Shown piece by piece: positions 1-17,551 of a stretch of 64,000 bases of DNA. Source of the DNA: Strigamia acuminata. Taxonomy: Eukaryota; Arthropoda; Chilopoda; Geophilomorpha; Linotaeniidae. Position numbers and translations under genes: made by a program. The DNA is taken from the NCBI GenBank assembly GCA_949358305.1, contig OX442323.1, positions 4,836,001 through 4,900,000 of the forward strand. Reading direction: 5' to 3'. The notes below the pieces were generated by a model. The model was not told the origin of the DNA, made no database searches, and saw nothing but the letters and a program-made list of their open reading frames with translations. Each line of letters begins with the position of its first letter. The stretch's first letter is position 1.

Positions 1-1379
1 CGTCGGCCGGAGATTCGGCGTCGAAGAATTCATCCTCGTCCTCCGCTATATTTTCAGCTTCATTTGTTTTTTGGAACGTGTCGACCACGGTGCCCCCTTG
101 GCCGCTGTGTGTCTGACCTTCCAGCCAGATTTCTTGGGGAAACTCTGGCAGATATGGCCTTAAATCTCGGCCATGTATCGACTGAAAATTTTTGTTGTCC
201 TCTAAGCGGCGTAGTTGGTATGCGTTGCCGCCGTGTTCGGCCACAATTACATAGGGACCGTCCCTCTTGTCGGCTAAACCTGCGGCGATGCCCCTCGCTG
301 CATTGGACAACGTGTGTGCCTCCTTCCACACTAGATCATTCACTTTAAAGTTCGCGAAAGCGAGATCGCCTTCTTTATCTGCGATTCTTTCTCTCATGTT
401 GAAAATATGCGCCATCATATGCTGGTATGTGTCGGATATAGTCTGTTCCAACCGGCACACGTACTCGTGTGGGCTCGATGGGTCTAATACGTTAACAGCT
501 TCGGCAACGCGTGGGTCCCATGGCATCCTTAATTCGCGGGCGAAGTTGAGGTACGCCGGTGAGAATTCGCGTGTTCTTGACACGGTTGAGCGAATGCTGA
601 AAGCGATTTCTCGCAGGTATTCGTCCCATCGATTGTGAATATCGGTGAATACTGTCAGCGCATATTTTATGTCTTTATTTAATCTCTCGACTGGGTTTGT
701 CTGAGGATTATACGTGGAGGTGTTTGATGCATCCATTTTAAATTTTCTACAGAAGTCCTTATATATTCTCGATCGGAATTGGGGGCCGTTATCCGAAATG
801 AGTTTTCTGGGAAACCCAAATCGCATTGCCACGTCGTAAAGGCACTCGACTATGTTTTCAGCCGAGGGCTTCGCGAGGGCGTACAGCTCCGGCCATCGGG
901 TGGCCACGTCCATAATTACGAGAATATACATGTTCTTGTTTCCCGTTGTGGGCTTGGGGCCCATCAAGTCTATGCTTAAGCAGTCAAACGGTGCGTAGGG
1001 TCCGAGAGACATGGCGTTTCTGGCCACTTTATCTCGCGGTCTGCACGCTTGGCACCGGGGGCAGTGTCGGATAAATTTCGTTATCTTTTGCCGCGCGCCC
1101 GGCCAGAAGAAAAGTTGTTTTACTCGATAAAGGGTCCTCGCCACGCCAGAATGGCTGGCGAGCGGGTGTCCGTGCATCAGCCACAACAGTCGGGTGTGCA
1201 GCGATGCCGGCACGACCACTTTAACCGAGTTTCCCGCTCCGCTGAGGTCATCTTGAAACGTCGGGTGGTATTTTACCAGGAGTTCATCATCTATGAGGTA
1301 GCTTGTTGCTTCTTTGACGAACTGTTTCCGGCGGTGTGGGTTTGTCATCCCTTCCGGAAATTCGCCGTTCAGCAAATAT
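1..1379 (-). CDS. pol: Element B pol, downstream part: integrase
   Basis: Reading the minus strand from 1379 to the window edge gives one frame with no stop. It is the direct continuation of the pol frame that ends at copia element A: with one copy of AATAT removed the frame is uninterrupted. Seen in order: an N-terminal HHCC zinc finger (HGHPLASH, then CPRCQAC); the integrase catalytic core with Asp in SIDLMGP, Asp in SDNGPQF and Glu in NPVERLNKD, at the spacing normal for insect-type gypsy elements; and a downstream module with DGPYVIV that resembles the GPY/F region. The tail is acidic (AEDEDEFFDA) and continues past position 1, so any chromodomain or env gene is out of sight. Integrase would splice the element's cDNA into the host chromosome. 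Confidence 0.92.
1375..1379. repeat. Left target-site duplication of copia element A (AATAT)
   Basis: AATAT directly precedes the TG of the 5' LTR and is repeated at 8578-8582 directly after the CA of the 3' LTR. Removing one copy together with the element restores element B's pol frame. Confidence 0.96.
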
Positions 1380-1915
1380 TGTTGGTCAAAAGACCATTTT
1401 GTATCGATGAATACATTTGTTATTTCCTAGTTTTCCCTTTGTGTTTAGGTATACAGCGCATCTTTGTTATTATTTAATTGATTTCGATGTTACCATTCGT
1501 TTTGCGCTGTCCCGTATGTAATTCCATACTTTTATCACTTTATGCTAGGATTTGTCCTATTATCAAATGATTTGTTCAAACTTAATGTAAATTCCCGGCA
1601 CTAGGTGCCACTACCCATTGCTTTTTCATCCAAGATGGCGTCATACACAGCCGTGTATGACTTAGCTGCTTTCCCACCTGTTTGGATACCTATTTGTAAT
1701 GTATTACTATTTAATTAAACCGTTTTTATTGTTTTACTCATTGTGTTTGATTTAAAGCACCTTTAGTGCTTCTTGCTAGCGCATATAAGCGGCATTAGGC
1801 CGCGCGCATTTCCGAAACGATACGCGTCGTATCGTTAACGTCTGTGCGGGTCGCACAGCGCCAATTCACGCTTTCAATCGGTTTACACCGATATTTTGCG
1901 CATTCTCTGCCTACA
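1380..1915 (+). repeat. 5' LTR of copia element A
   Basis: Starts TGTTGGTCAAAAGACC and ends CTGCCTACA; 536 bp, matching 8042-8577 without a difference I could see. A TATA-like CATATAAG at 1782-1789 is a plausible promoter core. Several short palindromes (GGTCAAAAGACC, GATACGCGTCGTATC, CATACACAGCCGTGTATG) are candidate transcription-factor or structural sites; that role is inferred. Confidence 0.96.
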
Positions 1916-1916
1916 T

Positions 1917-1934
1917 TGGTAGCAGAGGGTGGTT
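1917..1934 (+). promoter_or_regulatory. Primer binding site, initiator tRNA-Met type
   Basis: TGGTAGCAGAGGGTGGTT begins one base after the 5' LTR. It is complementary to the 3' end of eukaryotic initiator tRNA-Met as I know it (rev. comp. TGGTAGCAGAGGATGGTT), with 17 of 18 bases matching. It would prime minus-strand DNA synthesis from the intact tRNA 3' end, unlike Drosophila copia, which uses an internal fragment of the same tRNA. Confidence 0.85.
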
Positions 1935-2824
1935 GTTGGTTAAACAACCACTCCATTCGCCTAATTTATCGACGTTTTTTCGCGAAATTCGCGAATTTGC
2001 GCCGATATTTTTATTTTCAGATTTTCGGCGGCCATTTTGTCTCGATTTTCGTCTCGCCTGCGACGCCGACGTTTTATCGACGTTCACAGACGACCAGGGT
2101 CGTCAATCACACCATTATTTGTCTAATTTTCTCCGAAATTCCGCGGGATTCGCGAATTTCGAGAGAAATTCTTTCTTTTTGCAGATTTCACGTCGATTTT
2201 CGCTTCGCCAACGTCGAAGCGACGTTTTTCAACGAGAAACGGATCGAATTCCGCTGTGTATACCCCGGCGTATGCACAGTATCGTCGATCTATTATTTTC
2301 CGGACGAAGAGCCTCGATTTATCGAGAAGAAATTCGGATTTTTCAATCCGAATTTGCGCTTTTTCCAGTTTTTCGAGAAAACTGCGCCGTGCCTTCATTT
2401 GCACGAGGATCGCAACCGCGATCGATTCACCTATTTCTCCTTCTGTCGAAATACTATTGTTAATTTTAAGATATTATTAAGGCTTTTGGGGGTTCCTTTA
2501 GAATCGTGTTTGCCCTTGGATCGAGTCCGGTCAAGCTTACACGTATTCTCCGGTTGTGCTTGTCGTGGTACAAGTGAGGTTTCCCGCGGCTCCAGGAAGC
2601 CGATCGGACCCTCTCAGACTGGCAACCGGAGGTTATTTGATTCCTTCAGAAGGAATTGCCCAATTTGTGGTTTTTCGCCTCGAACACCGAGGGAACCGTG
2701 CAGTGAAGTGCTCTGAATTGTGAAAATTGTGAAAAGTGCTCCAATCTTGTGCGACATTTCAGCGCCTCTCTCTGAGTCAGTGTGATTTTCGCGTTGTGTT
2801 ACGCTCTTCGCGAATCGATCTACG
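1935..2824 (+). other. Untranslated leader of copia element A
   Basis: About 890 bp between primer site and gag-pol ATG. It is rich in short palindromic runs built on TTCG/CGAA and AATT (for example around 1975-2000 and 2130-2170). An open frame at 1844-2716 begins inside the LTR and crosses most of it, but its translation is low-complexity (Phe/Arg/Ser-rich) with no domain I recognise. I treat it as leader, possibly with packaging or dimerisation structure. Confidence 0.6.
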
Positions 2825-5800
2825 ATGCAGAAAGCGGCCAACTCGAACAGTTTAATTCCGGTTCTCGGTGTCGACAATTATGAACAATGGCGCTTGTCGA
2901 TGCAGTTTCTCTTAAAATCGGAAGGGCTTTGGCGTCACGTAACGGAGGATAAGGAGGCAGAGCACATTGCCACCCTGACGCCAAAAGAACTTGATCGCTT
3001 TATGGTGAAGAAGGACAAGGCCCTAGGCCACATATACATCCATGTGAGCCCCGCCAAGCGTACAGTTTTGGAAACCTGTAACACGCCAAAGGAGGCGTGG
3101 GACAAGTTGGCGAAAACCTACGCACCCAGCTCTAGAGCCCGTCAAGCGGCGATGCGCTGGGAGTTTCTCAGCCTCCAACTCCAACCTGGCGAAGATATGC
3201 CGGACTTCATTGCCCGCGTCGACAATTACGTGCGGCAACTAAGCGATGTCAACGAGATTATTAGCCCGGTTCACCACGCATACCAGTATTTGAAGTGTCT
3301 GCCGCCTGAATATGCTCAGGCAACATTTGCCATATACCACTGGCCGGATCCCCAATTCACGCCGAAGGATGTCGCCGAGCAGCTGATTTCCGAGCACATG
3401 CGGCTCAAATCCATCGGGTTGCTCGGAACGAGCCAATCATCAGCTCACACGTCTATGAAGGGACAATTCCGACCCCGAAATAAATCCGGACCTCGTGATA
3501 TCTCGACAGTGAAGTGTTTTAATTGCGACCAGCTCGGACATTACGCGAACCGATGTCCACGTCTACCCCGTCAACAACAGGGACAACCTACGGTTTCACT
3601 CCAACGTAATTCTCGGAGCAAGAGTCGCCGGCGCAACAAGAACGCTGCTGCGAAGGCCAACAACGCGCGTCCCCGAGAAAGCTCGCATCCACACCGAGAG
3701 GGGACATATTTTGTCAATGCGCCGCAGGTTATCCAACGTCCAGTCGCTCATTTTATGCAATCCAATGAGTGGATTCTGGATTGCGGCGCTACAGATCACG
3801 TATCTCACGTGCGTGCCGGTTTCACCGAGTTCACCGATGTCATTCCATTCGACATCGAGTTGGGACAGGGAAAGTCCCAAGTGACGGGAAAAGGAACGGT
3901 TCGTTTGCTAATGGCGATCGATAAGACCCGGTGCACCGTGAATTTAACAAACGTCCTTTACGCGCCGAATTTCGAGGCAAACTTGATTTCGGTTTCGAAG
4001 ATAGACAAGGCGCGACATCATATCCACATTTTCAATAGTGAGATACATGTTTACGAATCGGACATTCGCAGCCCTCTTATTCGTGCAAAGGAGAGAGGAG
4101 GTCTTTATTATGTGGACGGTTTGTGTACAAATCCGACATTTGCGACAACGGTTTCTCCCACTGTACAACCGACTCCAACGCTACCGCCGCAAATGTACGT
4201 GACTACGGAAGAGGATTTCATTAAAATTCCCAAACCGAAAAAGGGAAAAGGACAGCAACGAGAAATTACGGATTTTCGGATTGAAATGCCGCTAGTTGAA
4301 CCCGTGAAGCAAATTCCCGTCCAACAAGCTCCCATTCCAACCAATCCGATTCCTCCTCCTATCCCTACTCAAATCCACAACGATTTGACCACCCTTCCTT
4401 CCTATGCGAATGCCCTACAGTCAATCCCAACGGCAACTCCTATTGCAATTCCAAATGCAAATTCCTTTCCTCCCCTTGGCAACCCGTCTCAACCTAAAAA
4501 GAAGGTCATCGCCAATCCAGCCTCCGTCAAGGACGCCACCGGCTTATGGCATAGCCGTCTTGGCCACCTTCATACGAATGGAATGAAGCTATTGGCCGCA
4601 AACGACCAAGTTTACGGAATGTCACCAGGGGAAGTGAGCAGGGAATTGGCCTGCAACGACTGCAGAATAGCCAAATCGACAAAAGCTTCTCATAAGCCTG
4701 ATCCTAATCCCTCGACTACGAAGCCTTTGGACCTTCTCCACATGGATATTTGGGGGCCAGCCCCAGTTCCATCGTTTGGAGGAGCACGTTTTGTCCTTAC
4801 CGTCATCGACGACGCAACACGCTATTGCTGGATTATACCGCTAGCCCAGAAATCGCAGGTTTTCGCAACCTTTAAGGACTTCGTTGCTCGAGTTGAGAGA
4901 ATCCAGGACACGCAAATAAAAGCGATTCGGACTGATCGAGGCGGAGAGTTTATGTCAAACGAGTTTCTCCGATATCTACAAGCCAAGGGCATCCAAGGTC
5001 AACGGACAAATCCGTCGTCACCACAGATGAACGGCACGGCCGAGCGCATAAACCGGACAATGGCCGACAACTTTCGTGCAGTCTTATCCGAGACTAAGTT
5101 GCCGGAGGCGCTCTGGGCCGAGCTAGCGGTCACGTTTGCCTACATCAAGAATCGGAGCCCTCATTCTCGACTTAACAATCAAGTTCCGTATATCCTTTGG
5201 CGACAGAGAGCCCTTTCGTTACGACATCTACGAAAAGTCGGTTCCAAGTGCTGGGTGCACTACACCGCACCAGGACGCAAGAAGCTGGATCCGCGGGCCT
5301 GGGAGGGATATTTAGTCGGCTACGCTTCAGGGACCCGTGGATACAGAATTTGGAACCCAACTGACAACCAAGTCTACGAATCTATTCACGTTAAGATCGA
5401 TGAGCGGCAGTCGTATCGGAAATCCATCAAAATTTCGACGCAGCAGCCGCAACAATCGTTTACTGGTCCCGGACAGCAAACCGTTACATTTGATGATAAC
5501 CTACATTACCATCAGTGGCCGAAAGGATCTGATTCCGAGGCGTCAGAACATTCTGCGAACGATTCCGAACGTGTGTCGACGGCATCCGCTTCGATGCACA
5601 CGCCTCTGGCTTTTCCGCACATCCACATACCACCACCGACAACTCCGGAACGGGCATTGCTGGATTTATGTGCGACCTTACCTCCGGGTTCTGCGTCTCT
5701 TCGACAATCCCATCATATTTCATATGAAGAGGAACGTGATACGGACCACGACATCCGAGAGATGGACGAATTGTCAATTTATCCGGAAACATCCGAACAC

Positions 5801-7828
5801 GTTGATGCGTCAGCGGAACAATCGGCACGACCATCGCCTCCGACAACTCCTCGTACATCCGCTCCGCCATCACCTCAGCGATCGGCAGCGCCTTCTCTTC
5901 CCCGTGAAACACCGGTACCGACGCCGAGATTTATTACGACGCGTCGTCAGCAACGTGTTGATGATCAGGCTGCGCAAGGGTTGCAAATTTTCGACCCCGA
6001 TCCCAATTCACCAGCGACTGCGCGCCACACTACTCATAAGTGGCGATTCGTCGGTGGAGATGGCGAGTGCCGTGAATGGGTACGCGAGGAACACCTGAGA
6101 AAGGATCAAAAACCCGGGAAGATCTTAATTGATGTCTATTATTTTCCAACTCCGAAGATCCGTCTAAGATCTTATCACGACATCGAGGAGTATTGTATGT
6201 TGAACAATATTGATTACGACCCCGGACTGTTTTTCTTCGGTAATCTCGAACACAAATTGCCAACTCTTCCGGGCGTTCGTCATGCGGCTCATCTGTGCCG
6301 AACCGAGCCGGCTTCATTCGCCGAAATTCCCAAGTTCAACGACGCTCCGAAATGGCGTGAAGCAATCGGAGAGGAACTCGATATGTTCAAAGAGCGAGAA
6401 ATCTATAAAGAAGTTCCCCGACCACCCGACACCACTATTCTTGGCTGCAAGTGGATTTTTAAATTCAAAACCGATGCAGCCGGAACCGTCACCCGATACC
6501 GAGCACGCTTAGTAGCACAAGGTTTTTATCAAACCCTCGGAGTCGATTTTGATGAGGTGTTTAGCCCAGTCGTGAACTTCATATTGATCCGTCTGTTTTT
6601 CTGTCTTCTCGTCGTATTGCGTGGTTGGCAGGACGCCCACCTCGACGTGAAAGGTGCGTACCTGTACGGGGAATTAAAGCATAACGTATACATGAGAATC
6701 CCTGCAGGTGCCACATGCACTGATCCAAATAACGTGTGGCTTCTTCTCAAATCGCTTTACGGCCTCCACCAATCCGGGAGACAATGGTTCGAGAAACTTG
6801 ACGAGACACTTCGGGCCCTCGGATTTCGAAGACTGCCAGCATGTAATTGTGTTTACGTGTTCGGGAATACAGCTGTTATGCTGGTCTACGTGGACGATAT
6901 CGTCGTGTTTTACGCGTCCGACAGCGTTTTTAATCAGCTAATCCGTCTCATCTCTTCGAAATTCGATATAGTCAACCTCGGTCCAATCACGAAGTTATTA
7001 GGCGTCGAGTTTATCCGCGACGCCGGACGCACGTTCATAACGCAACGTGCTTATATCGCCAAACTGGTTAAGAAATTCGGGGCGTCGACCAATAATCTCG
7101 TCAAGACACCAGTGACCCCGGGAACGACACTCGTTAGAGGATCGACCGAAAACTTGGAAGATTTTCCATACCGATCTCTAATCGGTTCACTTCTGTTTTT
7201 GGCATCGAGAACTCGTCCCGACATACTCTATTCCGTCATCGCTTTGGCACAGTACAACACGTGCTATAATCGAACCCACATCCGCGCCCTGTTACAGGTT
7301 CTGCAGTACGTGGCAAACACTGCGGAGCTTTGCATCGAGTTATCCGGTTGCTCTTCTAGTCAACTATCTGCATTTACCGACGCGTCGTGGGCAAGCGATC
7401 CGGAGACATCATTGAGCTTCGGAGGATACATCGTATACGTTGGAAATGTCCCTATTGGCTGGTCCTGTCGCAAACAGTCGACCGTAGCGTGCTCAACCAT
7501 GGAAGCTGAATTTATCGCCCTGGTTGAGTGCGTGAAGGAGATTTTCTGGCTCGACAGCGTGTACACCGAATTCCCGATTCTCAATCGTCTATCCCGACCT
7601 ATCGTGTATTCGGACGCCCTGGCCTCGATTCAATTCACATCTAATGATATCGAGAACGCGAAGACGAAGCATATTCGCGTGAAGTTTCACTGGCTCAGGG
7701 AGTGGTTTACTGCGGGAGTCTTCGATCTTCGAAAGGTAGCCGGCGAAGCTAATACCGCCGACATATTCACAAAGTGGCTATCTTCGGAACGTTTACGATC
7801 ATTGATTTCGAAGATCTTCCGAGCATAA
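2825..7828 (+). CDS. gag-pol: Copia element A gag-pol polyprotein with MBD-like domain
   Basis: A single 1667-residue frame. In order: gag with a CCHC knuckle (C231, C234, H239, C244); protease with D319 in LDCGATDH, where the usual DSGA/DTGA carries Cys at the second position; integrase zinc finger (H576, H581, C610, C613); integrase core with D641, D704 and E740 (exact DD35E); a Ser/Pro/Thr-rich acidic linker (about 860-1065); an MBD-like domain (about 1075-1140); reverse transcriptase with YVDD at 1355-1358; RNase H with D1519, E1560/E1562 and D1597. All catalytic residues needed for transposition appear present. The start was chosen as the first ATG after the leader, giving a normal copia gag N-terminus. 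Gag and pol share one frame, so Gag excess must come from another mechanism such as splicing or proteolysis. It lies antisense to element B. Confidence 0.96.
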   Translation: MQKAANSNSLIPVLGVDNYEQWRLSMQFLLKSEGLWRHVTEDKEAEHIATLTPKELDRFMVKKDKALGHIYIHVSPAKRTVLETCNTPKEAWDKLAKTYAPSSRARQAAMRWEFLSLQLQPGEDMPDFIARVDNYVRQLSDVNEIISPVHHAYQYLKCLPPEYAQATFAIYHWPDPQFTPKDVAEQLISEHMRLKSIGLLGTSQSSAHTSMKGQFRPRNKSGPRDISTVKCFNCDQLGHYANRCPRLPRQQQGQPTVSLQRNSRSKSRRRNKNAAAKANNARPRESSHPHREGTYFVNAPQVIQRPVAHFMQSNEWILDCGATDHVSHVRAGFTEFTDVIPFDIELGQGKSQVTGKGTVRLLMAIDKTRCTVNLTNVLYAPNFEANLISVSKIDKARHHIHIFNSEIHVYESDIRSPLIRAKERGGLYYVDGLCTNPTFATTVSPTVQPTPTLPPQMYVTTEEDFIKIPKPKKGKGQQREITDFRIEMPLVEPVKQIPVQQAPIPTNPIPPPIPTQIHNDLTTLPSYANALQSIPTATPIAIPNANSFPPLGNPSQPKKKVIANPASVKDATGLWHSRLGHLHTNGMKLLAANDQVYGMSPGEVSRELACNDCRIAKSTKASHKPDPNPSTTKPLDLLHMDIWGPAPVPSFGGARFVLTVIDDATRYCWIIPLAQKSQVFATFKDFVARVERIQDTQIKAIRTDRGGEFMSNEFLRYLQAKGIQGQRTNPSSPQMNGTAERINRTMADNFRAVLSETKLPEALWAELAVTFAYIKNRSPHSRLNNQVPYILWRQRALSLRHLRKVGSKCWVHYTAPGRKKLDPRAWEGYLVGYASGTRGYRIWNPTDNQVYESIHVKIDERQSYRKSIKISTQQPQQSFTGPGQQTVTFDDNLHYHQWPKGSDSEASEHSANDSERVSTASASMHTPLAFPHIHIPPPTTPERALLDLCATLPPGSASLRQSHHISYEEERDTDHDIREMDELSIYPETSEHVDASAEQSARPSPPTTPRTSAPPSPQRSAAPSLPRETPVPTPRFITTRRQQRVDDQAAQGLQIFDPDPNSPATARHTTHKWRFVGGDGECREWVREEHLRKDQKPGKILIDVYYFPTPKIRLRSYHDIEEYCMLNNIDYDPGLFFFGNLEHKLPTLPGVRHAAHLCRTEPASFAEIPKFNDAPKWREAIGEELDMFKEREIYKEVPRPPDTTILGCKWIFKFKTDAAGTVTRYRARLVAQGFYQTLGVDFDEVFSPVVNFILIRLFFCLLVVLRGWQDAHLDVKGAYLYGELKHNVYMRIPAGATCTDPNNVWLLLKSLYGLHQSGRQWFEKLDETLRALGFRRLPACNCVYVFGNTAVMLVYVDDIVVFYASDSVFNQLIRLISSKFDIVNLGPITKLLGVEFIRDAGRTFITQRAYIAKLVKKFGASTNNLVKTPVTPGTTLVRGSTENLEDFPYRSLIGSLLFLASRTRPDILYSVIALAQYNTCYNRTHIRALLQVLQYVANTAELCIELSGCSSSQLSAFTDASWASDPETSLSFGGYIVYVGNVPIGWSCRKQSTVACSTMEAEFIALVECVKEIFWLDSVYTEFPILNRLSRPIVYSDALASIQFTSNDIENAKTKHIRVKFHWLREWFTAGVFDLRKVAGEANTADIFTKWLSSERLRSLISKIFRA
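6047..6244 (+). other. MBD/TAM-like methyl-CpG-binding domain within copia pol
   Basis: Residues about 1075-1140 of the polyprotein. Set against the MeCP2 MBD as I know it: W1085 matches the Trp of the GW start; R1092, seven residues on, matches R111; D1103 matches D121; Y1105 matches Y123; R1115 and S1116 fall 12 and 13 residues after the Asp, matching R133 and S134; Y1123 matches Y141; and DPGLFFF (1132-1138) matches DPNDFDF. Only two single-residue gaps are needed. The core reads DVYYFPTP, then RLRSYHDIEEY. These Arg, Asp and Tyr positions contact 5-methylcytosine in known MBDs. Binding to methylated CpG, and a role in target choice, are inferences. The nearest analogue is the chromodomain of chromoviral integrases. 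Confidence 0.83.
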
Positions 7829-8041: not shown

Positions 8042-8577
8042 TGTTGGTCAAAAGACCATTTTGTATCGATGAATACATTTGTTATTTCCTAGTTTTCCCT
8101 TTGTGTTTAGGTATACAGCGCATCTTTGTTATTATTTAATTGATTTCGATGTTACCATTCGTTTTGCGCTGTCCCGTATGTAATTCCATACTTTTATCAC
8201 TTTATGCTAGGATTTGTCCTATTATCAAATGATTTGTTCAAACTTAATGTAAATTCCCGGCACTAGGTGCCACTACCCATTGCTTTTTCATCCAAGATGG
8301 CGTCATACACAGCCGTGTATGACTTAGCTGCTTTCCCACCTGTTTGGATACCTATTTGTAATGTATTACTATTTAATTAAACCGTTTTTATTGTTTTACT
8401 CATTGTGTTTGATTTAAAGCACCTTTAGTGCTTCTTGCTAGCGCATATAAGCGGCATTAGGCCGCGCGCATTTCCGAAACGATACGCGTCGTATCGTTAA
8501 CGTCTGTGCGGGTCGCACAGCGCCAATTCACGCTTTCAATCGGTTTACACCGATATTTTGCGCATTCTCTGCCTACA
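8042..8577 (+). repeat. 3' LTR of copia element A
   Basis: 536 bp with the same start (TGTTGG) and end (CTACA) as the 5' LTR, and no difference seen by eye. It is followed by the AATAT duplication. Confidence 0.96.
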
Positions 8578-11109
8578 AATATTGCGTTATAATTTGACAT
8601 TTTGTGTCTGCTGCCTGGTGTTCGACGAACTCACGTCTCGTGGGTGGAGCGTATTGTGTTTTTTCTTCAATTTTTGCTGTGAAGGCGCGTAGTAGTGTTT
8701 TGTGGGTTTCTCCGGGGGGCGGAGATTGAATTTCGGATGTTGAATTGTTTGTCCCAGCTGGCTGGTATGTTCGAGTCCAAAAACCACAAAACGTTCTATC
8801 TTCAGGCTCCATCACTGGTAGCTCGTTCGCCTTTCGCAAACGCCATATTCTCCGTGGAGTCGGGCAGTACAAGAGGTGGGTGTCGTCCTCGCCGTCGTCG
8901 TCTGGTCCCTGGGGGTCAGAGGCTGGGGCTCTCGAGAGGGCGTCGGCCACATGATTGTACTTCCCGGGGCGGTACGTAATTGTTATATCGCACGCCATTA
9001 ACTCCAGTTGCCATCGTGCGAGTCGGCCGGAGGGTTCCTTGAGCTTCATCAACCAGCTTAGTGCCTGGTGATCTGTCTGAACCTCGAAGTTCGTGTACTC
9101 CAGATAGTCGCGAAATTTCCGAACTGCCCAAATTACGGCTAGGCATTCTAGTTCCGTTGCCGTATAATTTTTCTCCGCGCCCTGTATTTTTCTGCTTATA
9201 AACATACAGGGTACTTCTTGCGAGATTCCGTTGTACACGTGGGTCTGCAGAAGGGCTGCACCCAGTCCGATTTTACTCGCGTCGGTGTGCAACACGAACG
9301 GTCGGTTTAGGTCCGGCAATGGCATCTTTTCGACGTCAGCCAGCATTTGCTTGATAGTGCTAAATGCGGCCTCGCACTGGACCGTCCACTCAAACTCTTT
9401 ATCCGTTCGTAAGAGATCCGTTATAGGCGCGGCCACTTCAGCCAGACCAGAGAGTAGTCGGCCGAAGAAATTGACCATGCCCATGAATCTCTGGACACCT
9501 TTTATATCTTCGGGGGCGGGGAATCCGTTTATTGCTTTGACTTTTTCGGGGTCAATCGCGATTCCCTCGACTCCTATTCGATATCCTAGGAAGGCAAGCT
9601 CTTTCCTGCAAAACTTGCTCTTCCCTGGATGGATGTGGAGTCCTGCCTTGGCTAGGCGAGAGACCACTCTATCGATGTGGTCTATATGTTCTTCGAATGT
9701 GTCCGACGTTATTATGATGTCGTCGAGATACGCCCACACGAAGTCGTGCAGCATATCTCCCAACACGCTTTCGATCAGTTTCTGGAACGTGCTCGGGGCG
9801 TTTACAAGCCCGAACGGCATCACGTTGAACATTAGTCTTCCTATCGGGGAGTAGAAAGCCGTTTTCAGTTTGTCTTCGGGTTTTAGCTCCACTTGCCAAT
9901 ACCCCTTTGACAGGTCCATGGTGGTTACCCACTTGAACGGGCTCAGTTCCCGGAGGATCGAGTCTATAGACGGCATCTGAATCGGGTCTATAACCGTTAT
10001 CGCGTTCAGGGGGCGATAATCAATGCATAGTCGAGGTTCCGAGCCTGGACGCATCACCAGGACGATCCGCATGGCGTATTCGCCCAGGGCTTGCGTTACT
10101 ATGCCCTTGTCGAGCATGTCTTGGCACATTTGCGTCACGATGTCTCTTTTCTGGGGGTTCATCCCCTTGTAAGGCACTCGAATCGGCTTGTCTGTGGTTA
10201 AGACTATTTCGTGTGTTGCTTCCGTCGTTCGACCAGGTGTCTTGGTCAGAATTCTTTCATGCTTTCGAAGCACTCGCCTTAGTAGCGATGCCTCGTTAAC
10301 ACGCAGTGCTGCCTCCCCGACCAGGGTGTCCACGACGTTACTCCTCTGTAATTCCAGAGTGAAGGCTGCGAAATCGTAATCTTGGACGAATTTTCGCAAT
10401 CCTCTTCCGTATTCCTCTTTGTCCTTGGCTTCGTCCAGTAATTTTTGGGGAACTACGGGGACTGACCGTTCTCCCTCGGGACTTATCCAGTTCCATGAAC
10501 GGGTTATCGGGTTTGGCTGAATTTTCAGTTTCGCCATGATGTCCATCCCTAGGAGGAATACTTTGTCGTGGGATGGCAAGACTATGAAGGGGTGGGACAG
10601 GTTCCCCCCCGTCCAGTCGATCATGATGCGAACTACGCCCTTCGGCTTGACGTAGCCGTTGGCGGTGAGCAATTCTACGTTCGCGTTCACTTGTGCCACC
10701 TTCTTTCCAATATCCAAGTCTTTTACTATATCTTCGGATATGAATGAACGATCCGCTCCTGAATCCAGTAGACCGAACAATTTTTGGTTTTCTATCTCCA
10801 CTGGCAGCATACACAGAGTTTCGCAATGTGCTTTCGTGACATTGCAGTGAAATACGCGTAATGTCTGGGGCTCAACCTCCAGATTGAACGGAAGGTCCGT
10901 CCAATCCATGTCGACCTCCGGTTTCGTTCTCACTTGCATACTCGTTAACGTCACTTTTTCCTCCTTCTTCGGAACGATCTGTATGCGGTCTTTGATCTGT
11001 GCCTCTGCCAAGGCATGACCTGCGGGTCCAGTGTGATATTTCTTCTTTTTAATTTCCGCGGCTGGCGCAGACGAAGCTGAATTTATTTCGGCGACGCCTG
11101 CGCTTGGAA
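8573..11109 (-). CDS. pol: Element B pol: protease, reverse transcriptase, RNase H
   Basis: The frame is open from the frameshift site at 11110-11116 and has no obvious ATG near its start, as expected for -1 frameshift expression. Counting from the TTG at 11011: retropepsin with D83 in LLDSGADRSF; reverse transcriptase with YLDD at 428-431 and typical blocks LCIDYRPLN and MPFGLVNAPSTFQ; RNase H with D576 in HTDAS, Glu about 619-621 and D646 in QTDHQA. The frame ends artificially at 8573 in the LTR of copia element A; the real continuation is the integrase at 1-1379. Compared with intact Ty3/gypsy pol the visible parts are full length. Confidence 0.95.
8578..8582. repeat. Right target-site duplication of copia element A (AATAT)
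   Basis: Second copy of the duplication at 1375-1379. On its right the pol frame of element B resumes. Confidence 0.96.
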
Positions 11110-11116
11110 GTTTTTT
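11065..11116 (-). promoter_or_regulatory. Programmed -1 frameshift signal of element B
   Basis: Near the end of gag the zero-frame codons GCA AAA AAC contain the heptamer A-AAA-AAC (11110-11116), a canonical X-XXY-YYZ slippery site. After a 6-nt spacer, GCGCAGGCG (11095-11103) can pair with CGTCTGCGC (11065-11073) in a 9-bp stem with one G-U pair. Slipping back one base enters a frame that stays open through the gag stop into protease. The function is inferred from the geometry. Confidence 0.75.
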
Positions 11117-14100
11117 GCCAGATCAGTTCTTAACTCCATCATCATTTTCATCATGGTTTGCATGATGTCCTTTTCTTTGACGGTTTTCTCACATTTATCT
11201 GAGTAGTGGCCGTATTCTCCACAGCTGTAACATTTGATGTTACTTTTATCCCCTGTGGGAGTGAATCCCGGTTTTTTCGGGACGAAGGGCGTCGGGAATC
11301 GTCTTTTTCCTCCCAATGCTCCTCTCGCTTTTGTTGCTTGCACGTGTGCTCTGAATTGTGTGATTGCCAAGGCCCGGTGTGCATGGTGCAAATAGGGACC
11401 TTGATCGTCGCATCCCGTCGATAAGTTTTCGAGGTGCTCATTTAGGGCTTCCTCGTCGCTCGATGCTGGCTCCTCTTCTTTAGCCGTGGCGAGAGGTGTT
11501 GTCTCTTCGACTTTCTCCATCTGGGTGGAGTCCGTCGAGGTCACCTGCATCGCCGTCGCTGCCGGTGCTTTCTTTGGGGCAGCTATCGGGTTGGCTGGAA
11601 GAATACTGCCTGCTTTAGGCGTCAGCATTCGTCCGAAGGATGCTTCGGTGAGACTCATTATGCCGCTCAAATATTCACTTGGCCTCATTAATTTTTCTGA
11701 GGTCTTGTGGCGTTCGGCGCTCGTCTGCAACCGCTTCTCGTGCGCGTCAGCTTCTTCCGGGGGCAGAGTGGCGTAATACCGCTGTTCTATTTCTAACGTG
11801 TTTGTTAGAAGATAGTTACTGACATCTTGGTAATCGCCAGTGCGGGGTGCACGCATGTCTAGCAGAATTCTTTGCGAGTGGGCCGATAATCCTCCGTAAA
11901 AGATCATCGTAAAACCAGCGGGGTTTATTTCGTACGGCGCTCTTGCAAACAGGAGTTTCGCTCGGGCGTCGTAGTCGGCTAATGTTTCTCCTGGGGCTTG
12001 TCGTAGACCCCGTAATTTGTTACTGATCTCGTCTGGAGTCTCGCCGTATCGGAGATCGAAACGGACGAGAAAATCGTCCCAGGTTGGGTTTTTCAGTCCC
12101 TGGTACCATTCTCGAGCTGACCCCGTAGTTAGCTCCACTAGCCCGTGGGTTAGCATGTCGGCGACGGTGGCTTTTGTCGCTTTCTTGATACGCATTACTT
12201 CGTCCAGGAAGCGGTCTCCGGCCTTCCACGAACCGTCAAATCGCGTTTGAATATAGTGTTGCCAGCGGATGTTACCCGTGGCTTCACTGCTTGGTTCGTT
12301 TCGTACGCCATATTTGCGCTTAACCCTCTCTCCAGCGCGATTATGTTCGTCGCCTGGATGGCCTAGATCGATTCCTTCTCTTCTGAAAGAGTTCAGCAGG
12401 GCTCGGCCTAGCTCAGACATCGTGTAATGTCGGCCAGATGAGTCCTGAAAGTTCCCTTCCTCTGAACGAGGGTTGGAGCTCCGGGAAGAGCGGTCTGAAG
12501 CATTCGGCCGGTTCGACCGGTGCCCATCGCTGCCTTCTTGACTCCTTCCTGTAGACGGTCGACTCGGATGGTCGTCGTCCGACGAATCGGAGGGCTCGGA
12601 GGGATCTCCTTGGGGGTGAAACCTCGGCCCTCTCGGTGGGGTCTCTCCGCCAGCCTTCTTCTGTTTCGAGCCTTCGGATGGCGGCGGCTCCCCTCCGTCG
12701 TTGTTCTCGCAAAAAGAATGCCATCTGTTTTCCTCGCTCTCGGGGCGTTCCCGATTTTTATTTGCGTTTTTCTTTTCGAGTAACGCGTCGATGGCTGCTC
12801 CCGTCTCGGATCTTTTTGAGGGGTGACGGTCCTTTGTTTTTGGGACCGATCCGTCTCTCTTTTGAGATTTCCCCCTTTTTGCCGTTTTTGCCGGCTTTGC
12901 TGCATCTTCTCCTGTGTCGGTATCAGAGCCGCTTGGGGGTTCTGACTTCCGTTTCGGGTTTTCTTCCCTTTTCTTCCTGCCCGAGACACCTTGTTCGTAC
13001 TCTTTTTGGAACTTTTCTGTTTCTTTCTCCCAGTTTTCGGCTTCCCATCTTTTTTGCTCATCTATTATGGCTTGTTTCTTTGCTTTGTACTCTTCGGTCC
13101 ATCTGACTCGGTCCCATTCCTCTTTCTCTTTCAGGAACTGTTCCTTTTCTTTTCTGGCTTCCTCTTCTCTCAACCTCTCGCGATGTTGTTCTTCCCATTT
13201 TTGGTGTTGTAAAATGGCTTCTTCTCGCAACATTTGTAGCTTTTCTGCTTTTCTTTGAGCTACGAGCGCTTGAAATTGGTCCTCGTACTCTTGAGCTTCT
13301 CGATGTCGCCCTTCCACCGTGGCGTTCCATTCTTTTCGAATTTTAGCTTCTCGTTCCTCCCTCATTTTTTGGACCAGTTTTTCTGTTCTCTCGGTGGTTC
13401 TTCTTTCGCGTTGCTCCCTTTCTTCCTCTTCCTTCCAGAGTTCTCGCCGCTCTGCGCTCAGTCTTCGTTGGCGATTAGTCGCTTCTTGTCTGGCTTCTTC
13501 GCGGGCCTTCTCTCTGGATTGGTGAAGTGCCCGGTTGGGGTCTGGCGCGAAACCTCCGGTGTCACTGGGCGTTACCTGGGGCATGGGCGTCTCCGCTGCT
13601 GGTCTTGCGACCGGCGTCGGGGCTTGTGCCGCGCAGATAGCGTCAGTGAGTAGAGTAATCGATTCCCAGACTGACGTTCCTACTGGAATGTCTATCATCG
13701 CTTTCAGTTGGGCAGCTTGCCGTGTCAACCGAATTAGGTGAGATACCTCGAAGGAAACAACCGCAGGACTCGCCGTAACTCGGGGGGTTATCGGGGTCCC
13801 GCCGTCGTTTTTTCGTGGGGTTTGCTCCACGGACGTCTGAGCCGTGGGTGGCGATGGGTTCGTGCCGACCGTGACCGTTATTTTCGGAGCTTCATTCGTC
13901 TCCTCGGTCATCAATATCGATACTCGTCCTGGCGATACGTCGCGAATTTCTTCTCGATTTTCTATGGCTTCCGGATCGGTATCCTCGAAGGGTTGCATAT
14001 TCAAGGGAACCCGCTCTCGCTCTGGCCCGTCTAGGGCCGCGAGCGATGCAGCTTGCTCCTCTTTCTGCGCCTTCGCTCTCCTTTTATTCGCTCGGGCTTT

Positions 14101-14223
14101 CGCCTTTGCGGACATTTCAGGGACGGGACCATCCGATCTCAGGTGGTAGTCGGAGGTCCTTTTTCCCTTCTCGGGCATTCTCTGCTCGGTTTCAGACGTG
14201 GATTGCTCGTCTTTGTCTGACAT
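11083..14223 (-). CDS. gag: Element B Gag
   Basis: A 1046-residue Gag, long for the family. The N-terminal third is polar; residues about 230-420 are almost pure Glu/Arg/Lys/Gln and should form a long charged coiled coil. A low-complexity Pro/Ser/Arg region follows (about 420-640). A retrotransposon-gag core lies near 670-780 (SAREWYQGLKNPTW, FDLRYGE). A single CCHC knuckle near residue 1000 (CYSCGEYGHYSDKC) serves as nucleocapsid. The ATG at 14223 lies 74 bp after the primer site and is preceded by no other ATG in frame. The stop lies 25 bp after the slippery site, so most ribosomes would make Gag only. The very long coiled coil is the odd feature. Confidence 0.93.
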   Translation of the reverse strand: MSDKDEQSTSETEQRMPEKGKRTSDYHLRSDGPVPEMSAKAKARANKRRAKAQKEEQAASLAALDGPERERVPLNMQPFEDTDPEAIENREEIRDVSPGRVSILMTEETNEAPKITVTVGTNPSPPTAQTSVEQTPRKNDGGTPITPRVTASPAVVSFEVSHLIRLTRQAAQLKAMIDIPVGTSVWESITLLTDAICAAQAPTPVARPAAETPMPQVTPSDTGGFAPDPNRALHQSREKAREEARQEATNRQRRLSAERRELWKEEEEREQRERRTTERTEKLVQKMREEREAKIRKEWNATVEGRHREAQEYEDQFQALVAQRKAEKLQMLREEAILQHQKWEEQHRERLREEEARKEKEQFLKEKEEWDRVRWTEEYKAKKQAIIDEQKRWEAENWEKETEKFQKEYEQGVSGRKKREENPKRKSEPPSGSDTDTGEDAAKPAKTAKRGKSQKRDGSVPKTKDRHPSKRSETGAAIDALLEKKNANKNRERPESEENRWHSFCENNDGGEPPPSEGSKQKKAGGETPPRGPRFHPQGDPSEPSDSSDDDHPSRPSTGRSQEGSDGHRSNRPNASDRSSRSSNPRSEEGNFQDSSGRHYTMSELGRALLNSFRREGIDLGHPGDEHNRAGERVKRKYGVRNEPSSEATGNIRWQHYIQTRFDGSWKAGDRFLDEVMRIKKATKATVADMLTHGLVELTTGSAREWYQGLKNPTWDDFLVRFDLRYGETPDEISNKLRGLRQAPGETLADYDARAKLLFARAPYEINPAGFTMIFYGGLSAHSQRILLDMRAPRTGDYQDVSNYLLTNTLEIEQRYYATLPPEEADAHEKRLQTSAERHKTSEKLMRPSEYLSGIMSLTEASFGRMLTPKAGSILPANPIAAPKKAPAATAMQVTSTDSTQMEKVEETTPLATAKEEEPASSDEEALNEHLENLSTGCDDQGPYLHHAHRALAITQFRAHVQATKARGALGGKRRFPTPFVPKKPGFTPTGDKSNIKCYSCGEYGHYSDKCEKTVKEKDIMQTMMKMMMELRTDLAKNFQAQASPK

Positions 14224-14297
14224 TTTCTTTCGGTAATTCTACGATTTGGGTTATCTTATTGAGAGATCACAAGTTCAGATTTGAGATTTATTTCTAA

Positions 14298-14315
14298 ATC
14301 CCGGACAGGCCCCCA
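14298..14315 (-). promoter_or_regulatory. Primer binding site, tRNA-Pro-like
   Basis: On the minus strand TGGGGGCCTGTCCGGGAT starts two bases after the 5' LTR. It matches the 3' end complement of animal tRNA-Pro (TGGGGGCTCGTCCGGGAT, as used by murine leukaemia virus) at 16 of 18 positions. The two adjacent mismatches may reflect the host tRNA or drift. Confidence 0.7.
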
Positions 14316-14317
14316 CG

Positions 14318-15137
14318 TGTCGCGTCCTACTTGGTATAGGTTTAAATAGCGCTAACGTGTAATACTTTACCTGTGATCAATTATGTAAATACCCAAATGA
14401 ATACCAAATGTATGTAAATAAACAGGTAATTTATTCACCAGGCTTTATGCCTTTAAAATACACTCAGTAATAATTCTAGAGTCGACGTGGTCAGCGTCGA
14501 ACAAAGGATTTCTCAAGATGGCGTCGTCGATTCCGCGTGGTCGGCGGAACAAAGGCGGCGTCTCGAGTTGTCGTCAATTCGTCACGGATTCGTCTTCACG
14601 GACGCGGTGGAATGCTCTTTCGAGTCTTCTATCCGTGCCTGTTGTCTAGGGTTTGTTTAGCGTCGCAGAGGCCTCGTCTAGGAACTTTGGGGTTCCCTAC
14701 AAAGCACTCGGACACTTACTTCGGCGAATAATCGTCTGGGCGATTATTCTGGGTGATTTCACAAGGGCTATTCTCGTGCTTTCGCAGGAATAGCTCGCAA
14801 GTGACTTCGTGAGAGTTACAGTTTGCACTTTACTCAGCGATCCTCGATCAATCCTAACTTGTAGTTGAAGTTGGCCTGACGGTGAGGTAGTTGCTGTGTT
14901 CTTGGTGTCGTTTGTGTAAGTTCTGACTTTAGGCGGGAAACACAGCCTTTTATGCAGTGGGGTGAAGGGCCGGCGATCAACCAATGGGGGCTGACCATCA
15001 GCCGCTTCCTCCCCCTCGGGGCACACACCTGCCATGGGGAGGTGGAGCCAACTCGGGGGGGAACGACTCTTCAATCACAGTGACTCAGAGGACAAGCATC
15101 CGCCCTGGGGGGACACTTATCCAACTGGGTCACCACA
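14318..15137 (-). repeat. 5' LTR of element B
   Basis: 820 bp, in element orientation TGTGGTGACCC...GGACGCGACA. Homologous along its length to the solo LTR at 22106-22928. On the minus strand a TATA-like CATAAAAGG lies at 14946-14954 and a polyadenylation signal AATAAA at 14430-14435. The boundary with element C's interrupted pol is sharp. Confidence 0.93.
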
Positions 15138-17551
15138 AGATGCACACCTGTTTCCATTCCAAGTTGGATAGAAATGGGTGATCTCCTCTGGTTCGATATA
15201 ATCATAATCCGGAGTGTCTAGTGCAGACAGTGGAGCGCGTGATAATGCGTCCGCTACTTGGTTCATTGCACCGCGTCTAAAAATAATTTTAAACGCGCCA
15301 CATTGTATTTTGACGGCCCAACGACCAAACCTTCCCGATGGTTCCGGCGTACTCATCAACCAGCTAAGGGCCTTAGCATCGGACTCGAGAGTGAAAGTCG
15401 TGTATTCAATATAAGGGCGAAATCTTTCGATTGCCCATACAACGGCCAAACACTCCAATTCCGGCGTAGAATACCTTACTTCGGCCCCGTGTAACACTCG
15501 ACTGGCGTACGCGACTGCTTTTGGGACCATAATTAATTTCTGTTTCTTTTCACAGAATAATTCTACGTCTTGACAGAGTACTGCACCTAAACCTGAATGA
15601 GAAGCATCTGTCAAAATGACAAAAGGCTTATTCATATCTGGCATGTGGAGAAGGGCTTGGTCCTTGTCACACAAAATATCTTTGATAGTTTCGAATGCAG
15701 TTGTTTGTGGATCATCCCACACAAACTTTGCTTGATCATGCATAATATTGGTCAATGGACGAGCAATATTTGCGATGTTAGGAATGAATTTTCGGAAAAA
15801 ATTCGCAAGTCCTACAAATCTTTGAATGTCTTTAGAACAAGTCGGTTTGGGAAAATTCCTTACAGCCGAGACTTTGTCCGGGTCTGGAAGAAGAGATCCC
15901 TCGGAAATTAAATGGCCTAAAAATCGTAATGATGTTCGACCAAATTTTGACTTGTCTTTATTGATAGTTAGATTTGCGGCATCTAACTTCTCAAGTACGT
16001 CTTTAATATGTAATAAATGATTTTCCCATGTGTCGGAAAAAATAATTATATCGTCTAAGTAGACCAGAGCGTGTTTATATAAAGAGTCACCCAATACGGT
16101 AGTCATGAGGTGTTGAAAAGAGCTAGGTGCATTACAAAGACCAAATGGCAGTCTCTTGAATTGAAATTTGCCTTTTGGAGTGTAAAAAGCAGTTTTGCTC
16201 TTATCCTCCTCCTCCATTTCCATTTGATGATAACCTTTAGTTAAATCAATGGATGTAAAGTACTTGGCCTGATTAGTATGGTGAATTAATAGGTCAATAC
16301 TTGGCATTTGAATTGCATCAACTTCTGTGATCGCATTCAACCAGCGGTAGTCGATACATAATCGATACTTCCCGCCGGGTTTAGCCACTATGACGGGGTG
16401 ACTTATATAAGGGCCAGTGGCAGGTTCGATTAACCCATCAGCCTCTAACTCCTCGACCAATTCCGTCATAATGGCCTTCTTGGCTGGATTGTACATTCTA
16501 TATGGCTGGTGTTTCCAAGTAGCACCAGGTTTAAACTTGATGCTGTGCTTGGCCACCTTCGTACAGCCCAATTGATCTCGAAATACGTTTTTTAATTGCA
16601 AAAGAACGTTTACGAGTAACCGTTTTTCTTCCGCCGAGCTGTTGCAGCCTTCGACGAGTTTTTCTGCCCAATCAGGTGAAGTGGGAGTTCCTTCACCTTG
16701 GAGACCCAAAGTCCTAATGCTTGCTAAACAACAGTTAAGTTCAGTGGTCTCGTATGGCGCTGTCCATCCGGGCATGTCATCACAGGTGAACACAGCCCGT
16801 CGAGGATTAGGGTTTATCCCCGTTCTACGCATAAAATTGTGACCCAAAATCAACCCACATACATTCTTGTGTAGAATTATGAAGGTCATAGGTGTAACTC
16901 TCCTTTTATCGGCCCATTTGACACAAAGACAAACTTGACCGATAGGTCGGTGATCTATTCCGACCGCGCAGACACGCATTCCGCGGGGACATTCTTGTAT
17001 GAATTCCACCGGAATTTCTGTGTTTGAAAGGAGTTGTACTCCAATAAAACATTGGGTGGCTCCAGAGTCCATTAGTGCGTTGTAATCTAAACCTCCAATT
17101 TGGACATTCATACGCGGATCATCTTTGCCACCATTAATTAATTTGCTATTGCAAAGTTTGCCAAGAAATATTTTTCGTTCTTTCTTGTTCCATTTTTCAA
17201 GTTTAAGAATTTTCCTTAACTTGAAAACTTTGGGTACAAGCGGTTTCTTTGGCGCATTCCAACTTCCACTGAAAATACTCAAATTTTCTAGTTGGTCTGT
17301 CATGATTTTTAAATTCTCATCGACACCACCAGTGGAACTACTAGCTTTCCGACAGACAGGCACTGCTTCGTAAGAAATGACCAACGATGGTGGTTTATTC
17401 TTCGAATCATCGACATAAGGTACTGTGAGATGACTAGGCTTATGTCTTATTTTAATTTCTTTTTTATGAAAAAATAAATCATTTGAAAATTCCGAGAGAG
17501 GAAACAACTCGTTAGGCGGGGGTTGGGCAACTTGAACAACCCCCTGAATCA
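15117..17551 (-). CDS. pol: Element C pol (protease, RT, RNase H), truncated
   Basis: The frame opens at the frameshift site and lacks a needed ATG. Counting from the TTG at 17507: a Lys-rich pre-protease segment; retropepsin with D147 in LMDSGATQCF; reverse transcriptase with LCIDYRWLN near 383-391, LPFGLCNAPSSFQ near 453-465 and YLDD at 483-486; RNase H beginning near 625 with Asp in ILTDASHSGLG and a later ESDAKALSW. The last few codons and the stop (15117-15137) come from the inserted LTR of element B, so integrase is missing here. There is no internal stop, so C looks intact before B's insertion. It is related to but clearly distinct from element B's pol. Confidence 0.93.

Follow-up and report, generated by a model that had tools for sequence, protein, structure and literature searches.

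A methyl-CpG-binding domain between integrase and reverse transcriptase in copia retrotransposons of Strigamia acuminata

The polyprotein of a copia retrotransposon in the genome of Strigamia acuminata carries an additional domain between its integrase and its reverse transcriptase. A profile of related sequences, conserved residues and relatives in the same genome strongly support its assignment, at residues 1085-1138, as a methyl-CpG-binding domain (MBD), and the predicted fold and purifying selection agree with it. The reading that we favour, at even odds, is that this MBD, probably captured by an ancestor common to several copia families, would tether integration to CpG-dense, perhaps methylated, chromatin.

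The element lies in a 64,000-nucleotide stretch of DNA that was analysed as a whole, hereafter the window. Its two LTRs are 100% identical over a 537-base blastn alignment (the extra base is a T common to both, adjoining the LTR), which points to a recent insertion of this copy. The possible primer binding site may resemble the 3' end of initiator tRNA-Met; no tRNA was found in the 64-kb window. The gag-integrase-reverse transcriptase order, with integrase before reverse transcriptase, the RVT_2 type of the latter, the TG...CA LTRs, the short target duplication of 5 bp and the single intact frame are all as in Ty1/copia (Pseudoviridae), from which the element differs by the extra MBD. Intact frames span about 1510-1720 aa in the MBD families; the remaining copia frames used are shorter, at about 1290-1465 aa. 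To the right, the minus strand holds frames that belong to other LTR elements, with RVT_1, RNase H and protease domains, at 8576-14223 and 15120-17507; those at 8576-11011 (RVT_1, RNase H, aspartyl protease) start right at the LTR end. Judging from this right-hand side, the copia element appears nested in another LTR element.

Table 1 Features of the copia element in the window.
Feature	Position	Strand	Polyprotein residues	Basis
LTR, 5' copy (536 bp, TG...CA)	1380..1915	+		blastn of the two ends
LTR, 3' copy (536 bp)	8042..8577	+		blastn of the two ends
Target site duplication AATAT, left	1375..1379	+		read from sequence
Target site duplication AATAT, right	8578..8582	+		read from sequence
Possible primer binding site	1917..1932	+		read from sequence
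Copia polyprotein, 1667 aa, intact single frame	2825..7828	+		ORF and Pfam
Retrotran_gag_2			26-195	Pfam
zf-CCHC			230-245	Pfam
Pol_BBD			316-396	Pfam
gag_pre-integrs			564-618	Pfam
rve (integrase core)			632-733	Pfam
SH3_retrovirus, SH3-like integrase end	5207..5416	+	795-864	Pfam PF25597, E 5.4e-25
Linker, integrase to MBD	5417..6076	+		no Pfam match reported
MBD core	6077..6238	+	W1085-F1138	profiles, residues, relatives, predicted fold, selection
Reverse transcriptase RVT_2	6398..7117	+	1192-1431	Pfam, E 7.2e-57

The original prediction had aligned residues W1085, R1092, D1103, Y1105, R1115, S1116 and Y1123 and the block DPGLFFF from residue 1132 with the MBD of MeCP2. All of them are found at these positions, and the domain does sit between the SH3-like integrase end and RVT_2, in the same open frame. 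One correction applies: set against other copia MBDs, the window family has one additional residue past the Arg111 equivalent, inserted between R1092 and D1103, and Y1123 is not kept throughout.

By itself, the window domain stays below the Pfam cut-off of 21 bits. The MBD model (PF01429) gives 14.4 bits for an 84-aa cut-out and 14.9 bits for one of 82 aa (E 0.03 and 0.02, respectively), and window queries of 1667 and 111 aa returned no MBD match from Pfam. Searching the PDB by phmmer with the window sequence alone yielded GET3 noise only. A profile built from the MBDs of other copia families (10 sequences), in contrast, scores the window domain at 47.5 bits (E 1e-12), against 11.9 bits for the best of 20000 composition-preserving shuffles. 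The comparison with the MBD family proposed in the original prediction would not have decided the matter for the window domain alone; the relatives did so, through this bridging profile.

A profile of 17 sequences reaches MBD2 in the PDB at 1.3e-13 and ranks MBD2, MBD1, MBD4, MBD3 and MeCP2 above BAZ2B (1e-4) and BAZ2A. Structure prediction, performed on a stretch (6023-6268) slightly longer than the 6047-6244 originally delimited, returned an MBD fold; its first 28 Foldseek matches are MBDs, though weak ones. In MeCP2 numbering, the Trp and the counterparts of Arg111, Asp121, Arg133 and Ser134 are present in all 17 aligned copia MBDs. These four counterparts, contact residues of the MBD, recur in 34 of the 34 loci that could be anchored; in L041 the Arg133-Ser134 stretch is lost. 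Position 123 varies more: it is Tyr in 11 of the 17 (Y1105 in the window family) and V, I or W in 6, as it is in 14 of the 34 loci. Altogether, the copia domain is homologous to the MBD family (MBD1-4, MeCP2), with MBD2 as its nearest member by profile, the same predicted fold and, in the window family, Tyr123; its differences are the seat in a retrotransposon polyprotein and the insertion of the window family.

Relatives carrying the domain, which the prediction had suggested looking for, exist in the same genome (237.5 Mb, 157 contigs), where clear MBDs occupy the same place in other copia families. The best 150 of 1092 candidates for the Pfam MBD model all exceed its cut-off, and by our own count 119 of these 150 places lie in open frames 1500 aa or more in length. 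We read 20 loci and inspected 36 further stretches, 7 of them repeats of earlier places; by eye, all but one look like copia polyproteins with an MBD, and the exception, L055, resembles a BAZ2-type exon and is probably an exon of the host. Beside the window lineage, likeness separates groups A (L057, L010), B (L058, L059), C (L063, L048, L050), D (L064, L045, with L046 as a relative), E (L061) and F (L053), groups A, B and E being seen in shortened frames only. A reverse transcriptase match follows the MBD in all 16 sequences tested, 45-84 residues from its end. The window family extends down to 66% identity in the best 150 of 1196 candidates, and at least 42 copies, the window included, have a 100% identical 115-aa stretch. 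Of the best 150 of 2625 places resembling the window reverse transcriptase, at least 128 have an MBD within 1.3 kb among the matches listed and 22 do not, though some of the 22 may have one outside those matches. No relative was confirmed in the viral contigs scanned.

One window-family copy (C1:66463882) lies in a 3432-aa open frame, about twice the polyprotein length. Equal-scoring MBD pairs 3-4 kb apart, under one element length, occur at C9:1650569/1653884, C5:15710231/15714155 and C5:11959916/11963824; these are perhaps partial tandem duplications. L109, a copia copy from a family with a 1388-aa frame, has the integrase SH3 and the start of the reverse transcriptase and gave no MBD match. 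Its integrase-reverse transcriptase linker, where other families have the MBD, contains two GRP motifs that are AT-hook-like (L109 1-801, minus strand).

Selection was assessed in 11 pairs of copies, in 8 of which at least one region was saturated. The MBD gave a dN/dS ratio in 4 of the 11, between 0.04 and 0.23 (window-L033 0.10, L063-L048 0.08, L048-L050 0.04, L064-L063 0.23). For the first three of these pairs the linker stands at 0.23, 0.31 and 0.36 and the reverse transcriptase at 0.07, 0.05 and 0.02; the last part of the linker, for which 8 of 11 pairs give a ratio, ranges over 0.08-0.36. Across nine representatives, of which three belong to the window lineage, MBD and reverse transcriptase identities rise together (r 0.87; 1 of 5000 permutations as high), and the reverse transcriptases of different groups are 46-76% identical. 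For these MBD-bearing representatives, this fits one old capture and joint descent: an ancestor shared by several copia families probably acquired the MBD, which has passed down with the polymerase since.

The host genome encodes DNMT1, DNMT3 and MBD2/3 domains, which makes it likely that methylated DNA exists in this organism. DNMT1-RFD domains occur in five places (C3:35916032, C3:35876619, C3:32740723, C1:11843310 and C1:30365731), one with a stop and one weak, which may stand for several host DNMT1 genes or for remnants. It has one ADD_DNMT3 domain and one MBD2/3 gene, with an intron inside the MBD (L105, about 2325-2675, minus strand). At the Tyr123 position the host MBD2/3 has Phe, and the window element Tyr. 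With the equivalents of Arg111, Asp121, Tyr123, Arg133 and Ser134 kept, and with these methylation domains in the host, it is plausible that the window MBD reads 5-methylcytosine. Methyl-specific reading is likely for the predicted reader of the window family, and may or may not extend to the families with V, I or W.

After processing of the polyprotein, the MBD would stay on the C-terminal tail of integrase or on an integrase-reverse transcriptase intermediate. It would there bind CpG-rich DNA, with a probable preference for methylated CpG where a family retains the Tyr, and would tether the integration complex to CpG-dense, repeat-rich chromatin, like the chromodomain on chromovirus integrase. 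Chromoviruses (chromodomain-bearing Ty3/gypsy) also place a reader of a chromatin mark on the C-terminal side of integrase; they belong to another superfamily and use another domain, which reads histone rather than DNA methylation, and for the window element we infer targeting. Pfam found no chromodomain in the window polyprotein, an RVT_2 copia and not a member of the chromoviruses. Both the position of the MBD and the genomic distribution of the copies agree with a possible steering of integration; the observed/expected CpG of insertion flanks (below) does not differ from control DNA. In PMC5911963, Ty1 and Ty5 are described as finding their targets via integrase C-termini, and PMC2832683 reports that a chromodomain added to Tf1 integrase redirected it to heterochromatin. 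The same paper gives no strong preference for heterochromatin to LORE1, a chromovirus; a reader domain is therefore no proof of targeting.

The insertion sites lend no support to methylated gene bodies, one of the targets originally envisaged. From 20 left flanks of young copies we used 18, dropping L075 (no LTR start) and L082 (beside a neighbouring element copy); the controls were 20 stretches, 19 random and one (C4:9000000) chosen manually to replace a draw that fell on an element. CpG depletion, as a footprint of methylated-gene targeting, was not found in the 18 flanks: their median observed/expected CpG is 1.06 versus 1.01 in the 20 controls (p 0.21), so the targets show no sign of having been methylated over a long time. 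CpG density is higher in the flanks (6.5 versus 3.7 per 100 bp, p 3e-4), an excess that goes with GC (0.49 versus 0.37, p 1e-4). Several copies have inserted into other transposable elements, though one is in a probable host gene. Pfam on frames from seven of the 18 flanks returned one MBD-copia, one copia integrase end, one gag-like match below cut-off, one gene with a GBP domain (L080, the probable host gene) and, for three, nothing. The L068 flank matches region 14251-14749 next to the element in the window at 99.4%, and the L076 flank and L028 have a 107-base repeat in common. At L083, a young window-family copy sits inside another MBD-copia, immediately 3' of the latter's MBD.

The copies are also unevenly distributed. 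Among the matches listed, the small contigs (all but eleven large ones; 13.1 of 237.5 Mb) hold 7 of the 42 window-family copies with the 100% identical 115-aa stretch and 15 of the 119 intact copies of other MBD families, versus 0 of 96 intact copia copies presumed to be without an MBD, a status checked in L109 and inferred from shorter frames for the rest. Against these presumed non-MBD copies, Fisher tests give 1.7e-4 for the window family and 1.6e-4 for the other MBD families, uncorrected; two-sided binomial tests against 13.1/237.5 Mb give 0.008, 0.004 and, for the 0 of 96, 0.011. The part of C1 beyond 60 Mb contains, again among the matches listed, 3 of 42 (p 0.08, not significant), 14 of 119 (p 0.002) and 1 of 96 copies, respectively; 7 of 42 (p 0.03) and 26 of 119 (p 1e-4) of those listed lie at most 1 Mb from an old window-family fragment versus 4 of 96, all uncorrected. 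The 96 presumed non-MBD copies, set against 54 MBD places from the Pfam-model search and none from the window-family search, gave one pair within 6 kb. This distribution may come from targeting to repeat-rich chromatin, or from better retention there, from assembly or from the choice of listed matches.

A serious rival, which we nonetheless find doubtful, is that the MBD binds DNA or chromatin proteins irrespective of methyl-CpG and gives the integration complex a general grip. TAM-type domains of BAZ2 are thought to bind without such specificity, and the profile that places MBD1-4 and MeCP2 above BAZ2A and BAZ2B does extend to the latter. Both Arg fingers and the Asp121 and Ser134 equivalents, invariant in the 17 aligned sequences, argue for specificity; the replacement of Tyr123 in 6 of them, and flanks that are CpG-dense and not CpG-depleted, argue for a looser grip, as do the AT-hook-like motifs in the MBD-free linker of L109, where the slot may need any DNA binder.

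It is unlikely that the domain counters silencing, occupying methylated element copies or competing with host MBD2/3 so as to keep repressors off, with no steering of integration. The host does have MBD2/3 and DNMT domains and young copies are numerous, but the window element is CpG-rich (observed/expected 1.38) with no sign of long methylation, and its MBD, lodged between integrase and reverse transcriptase, does not form a protein of its own. Quite improbable, too, is a purely structural domain that has lost DNA binding and now serves the spacing, folding or assembly of integrase and reverse transcriptase: the invariant positions include residues that we take to be DNA contacts, and the L109 family does without an MBD, even if the similar MBD-reverse transcriptase spacing and the dN/dS constraint would suit such a role. 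Finally, chance resemblance, ruled out by the shuffles, or a decayed insertion is next to inconceivable, since the sub-threshold Pfam score and the barren single-sequence search are opposed by the relatives' MBDs, the PDB profile matches, Foldseek and dN/dS.

Among the open-licence papers listed in our searches, titles and abstract starts show no copia element with an MBD, though one may have been seen before. PMC6338049 names a chromodomain, a DnaQ-like exonuclease and an RNA helicase among accessory domains, and the MBDs encountered in PMC8616336 belong to the host. Retrotransposons of dinoflagellates and charophytes that carry a DNMT, described in PMC5890265, have likewise taken up part of the DNA methylation machinery, but carry a methyltransferase and not a reader; Symbiodinium copia without DNMT is reported there as well, and the term MBD is absent from the main text.

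Beyond tethering as such, we put forward tentatively, at less than even confidence, that an old and successful copia lineage of a methylating animal steers its integration by its own 5-methylcytosine reader into methylated CpG-dense repeat chromatin, as an analogue, based on DNA methylation, of the chromodomain retrotransposons, the integrase-reverse transcriptase linker being a slot for DNA-binding modules (MBD here, AT-hook-like elsewhere). DNA methylation is usually thought of as transposon silencing; if this reading is true, it would also be linked to a transposon's choice of site. Families within the same genome that are distinguished by a single contact residue, Tyr versus V, I or W, would then offer a natural system for the effects of methylation on animal transposons.
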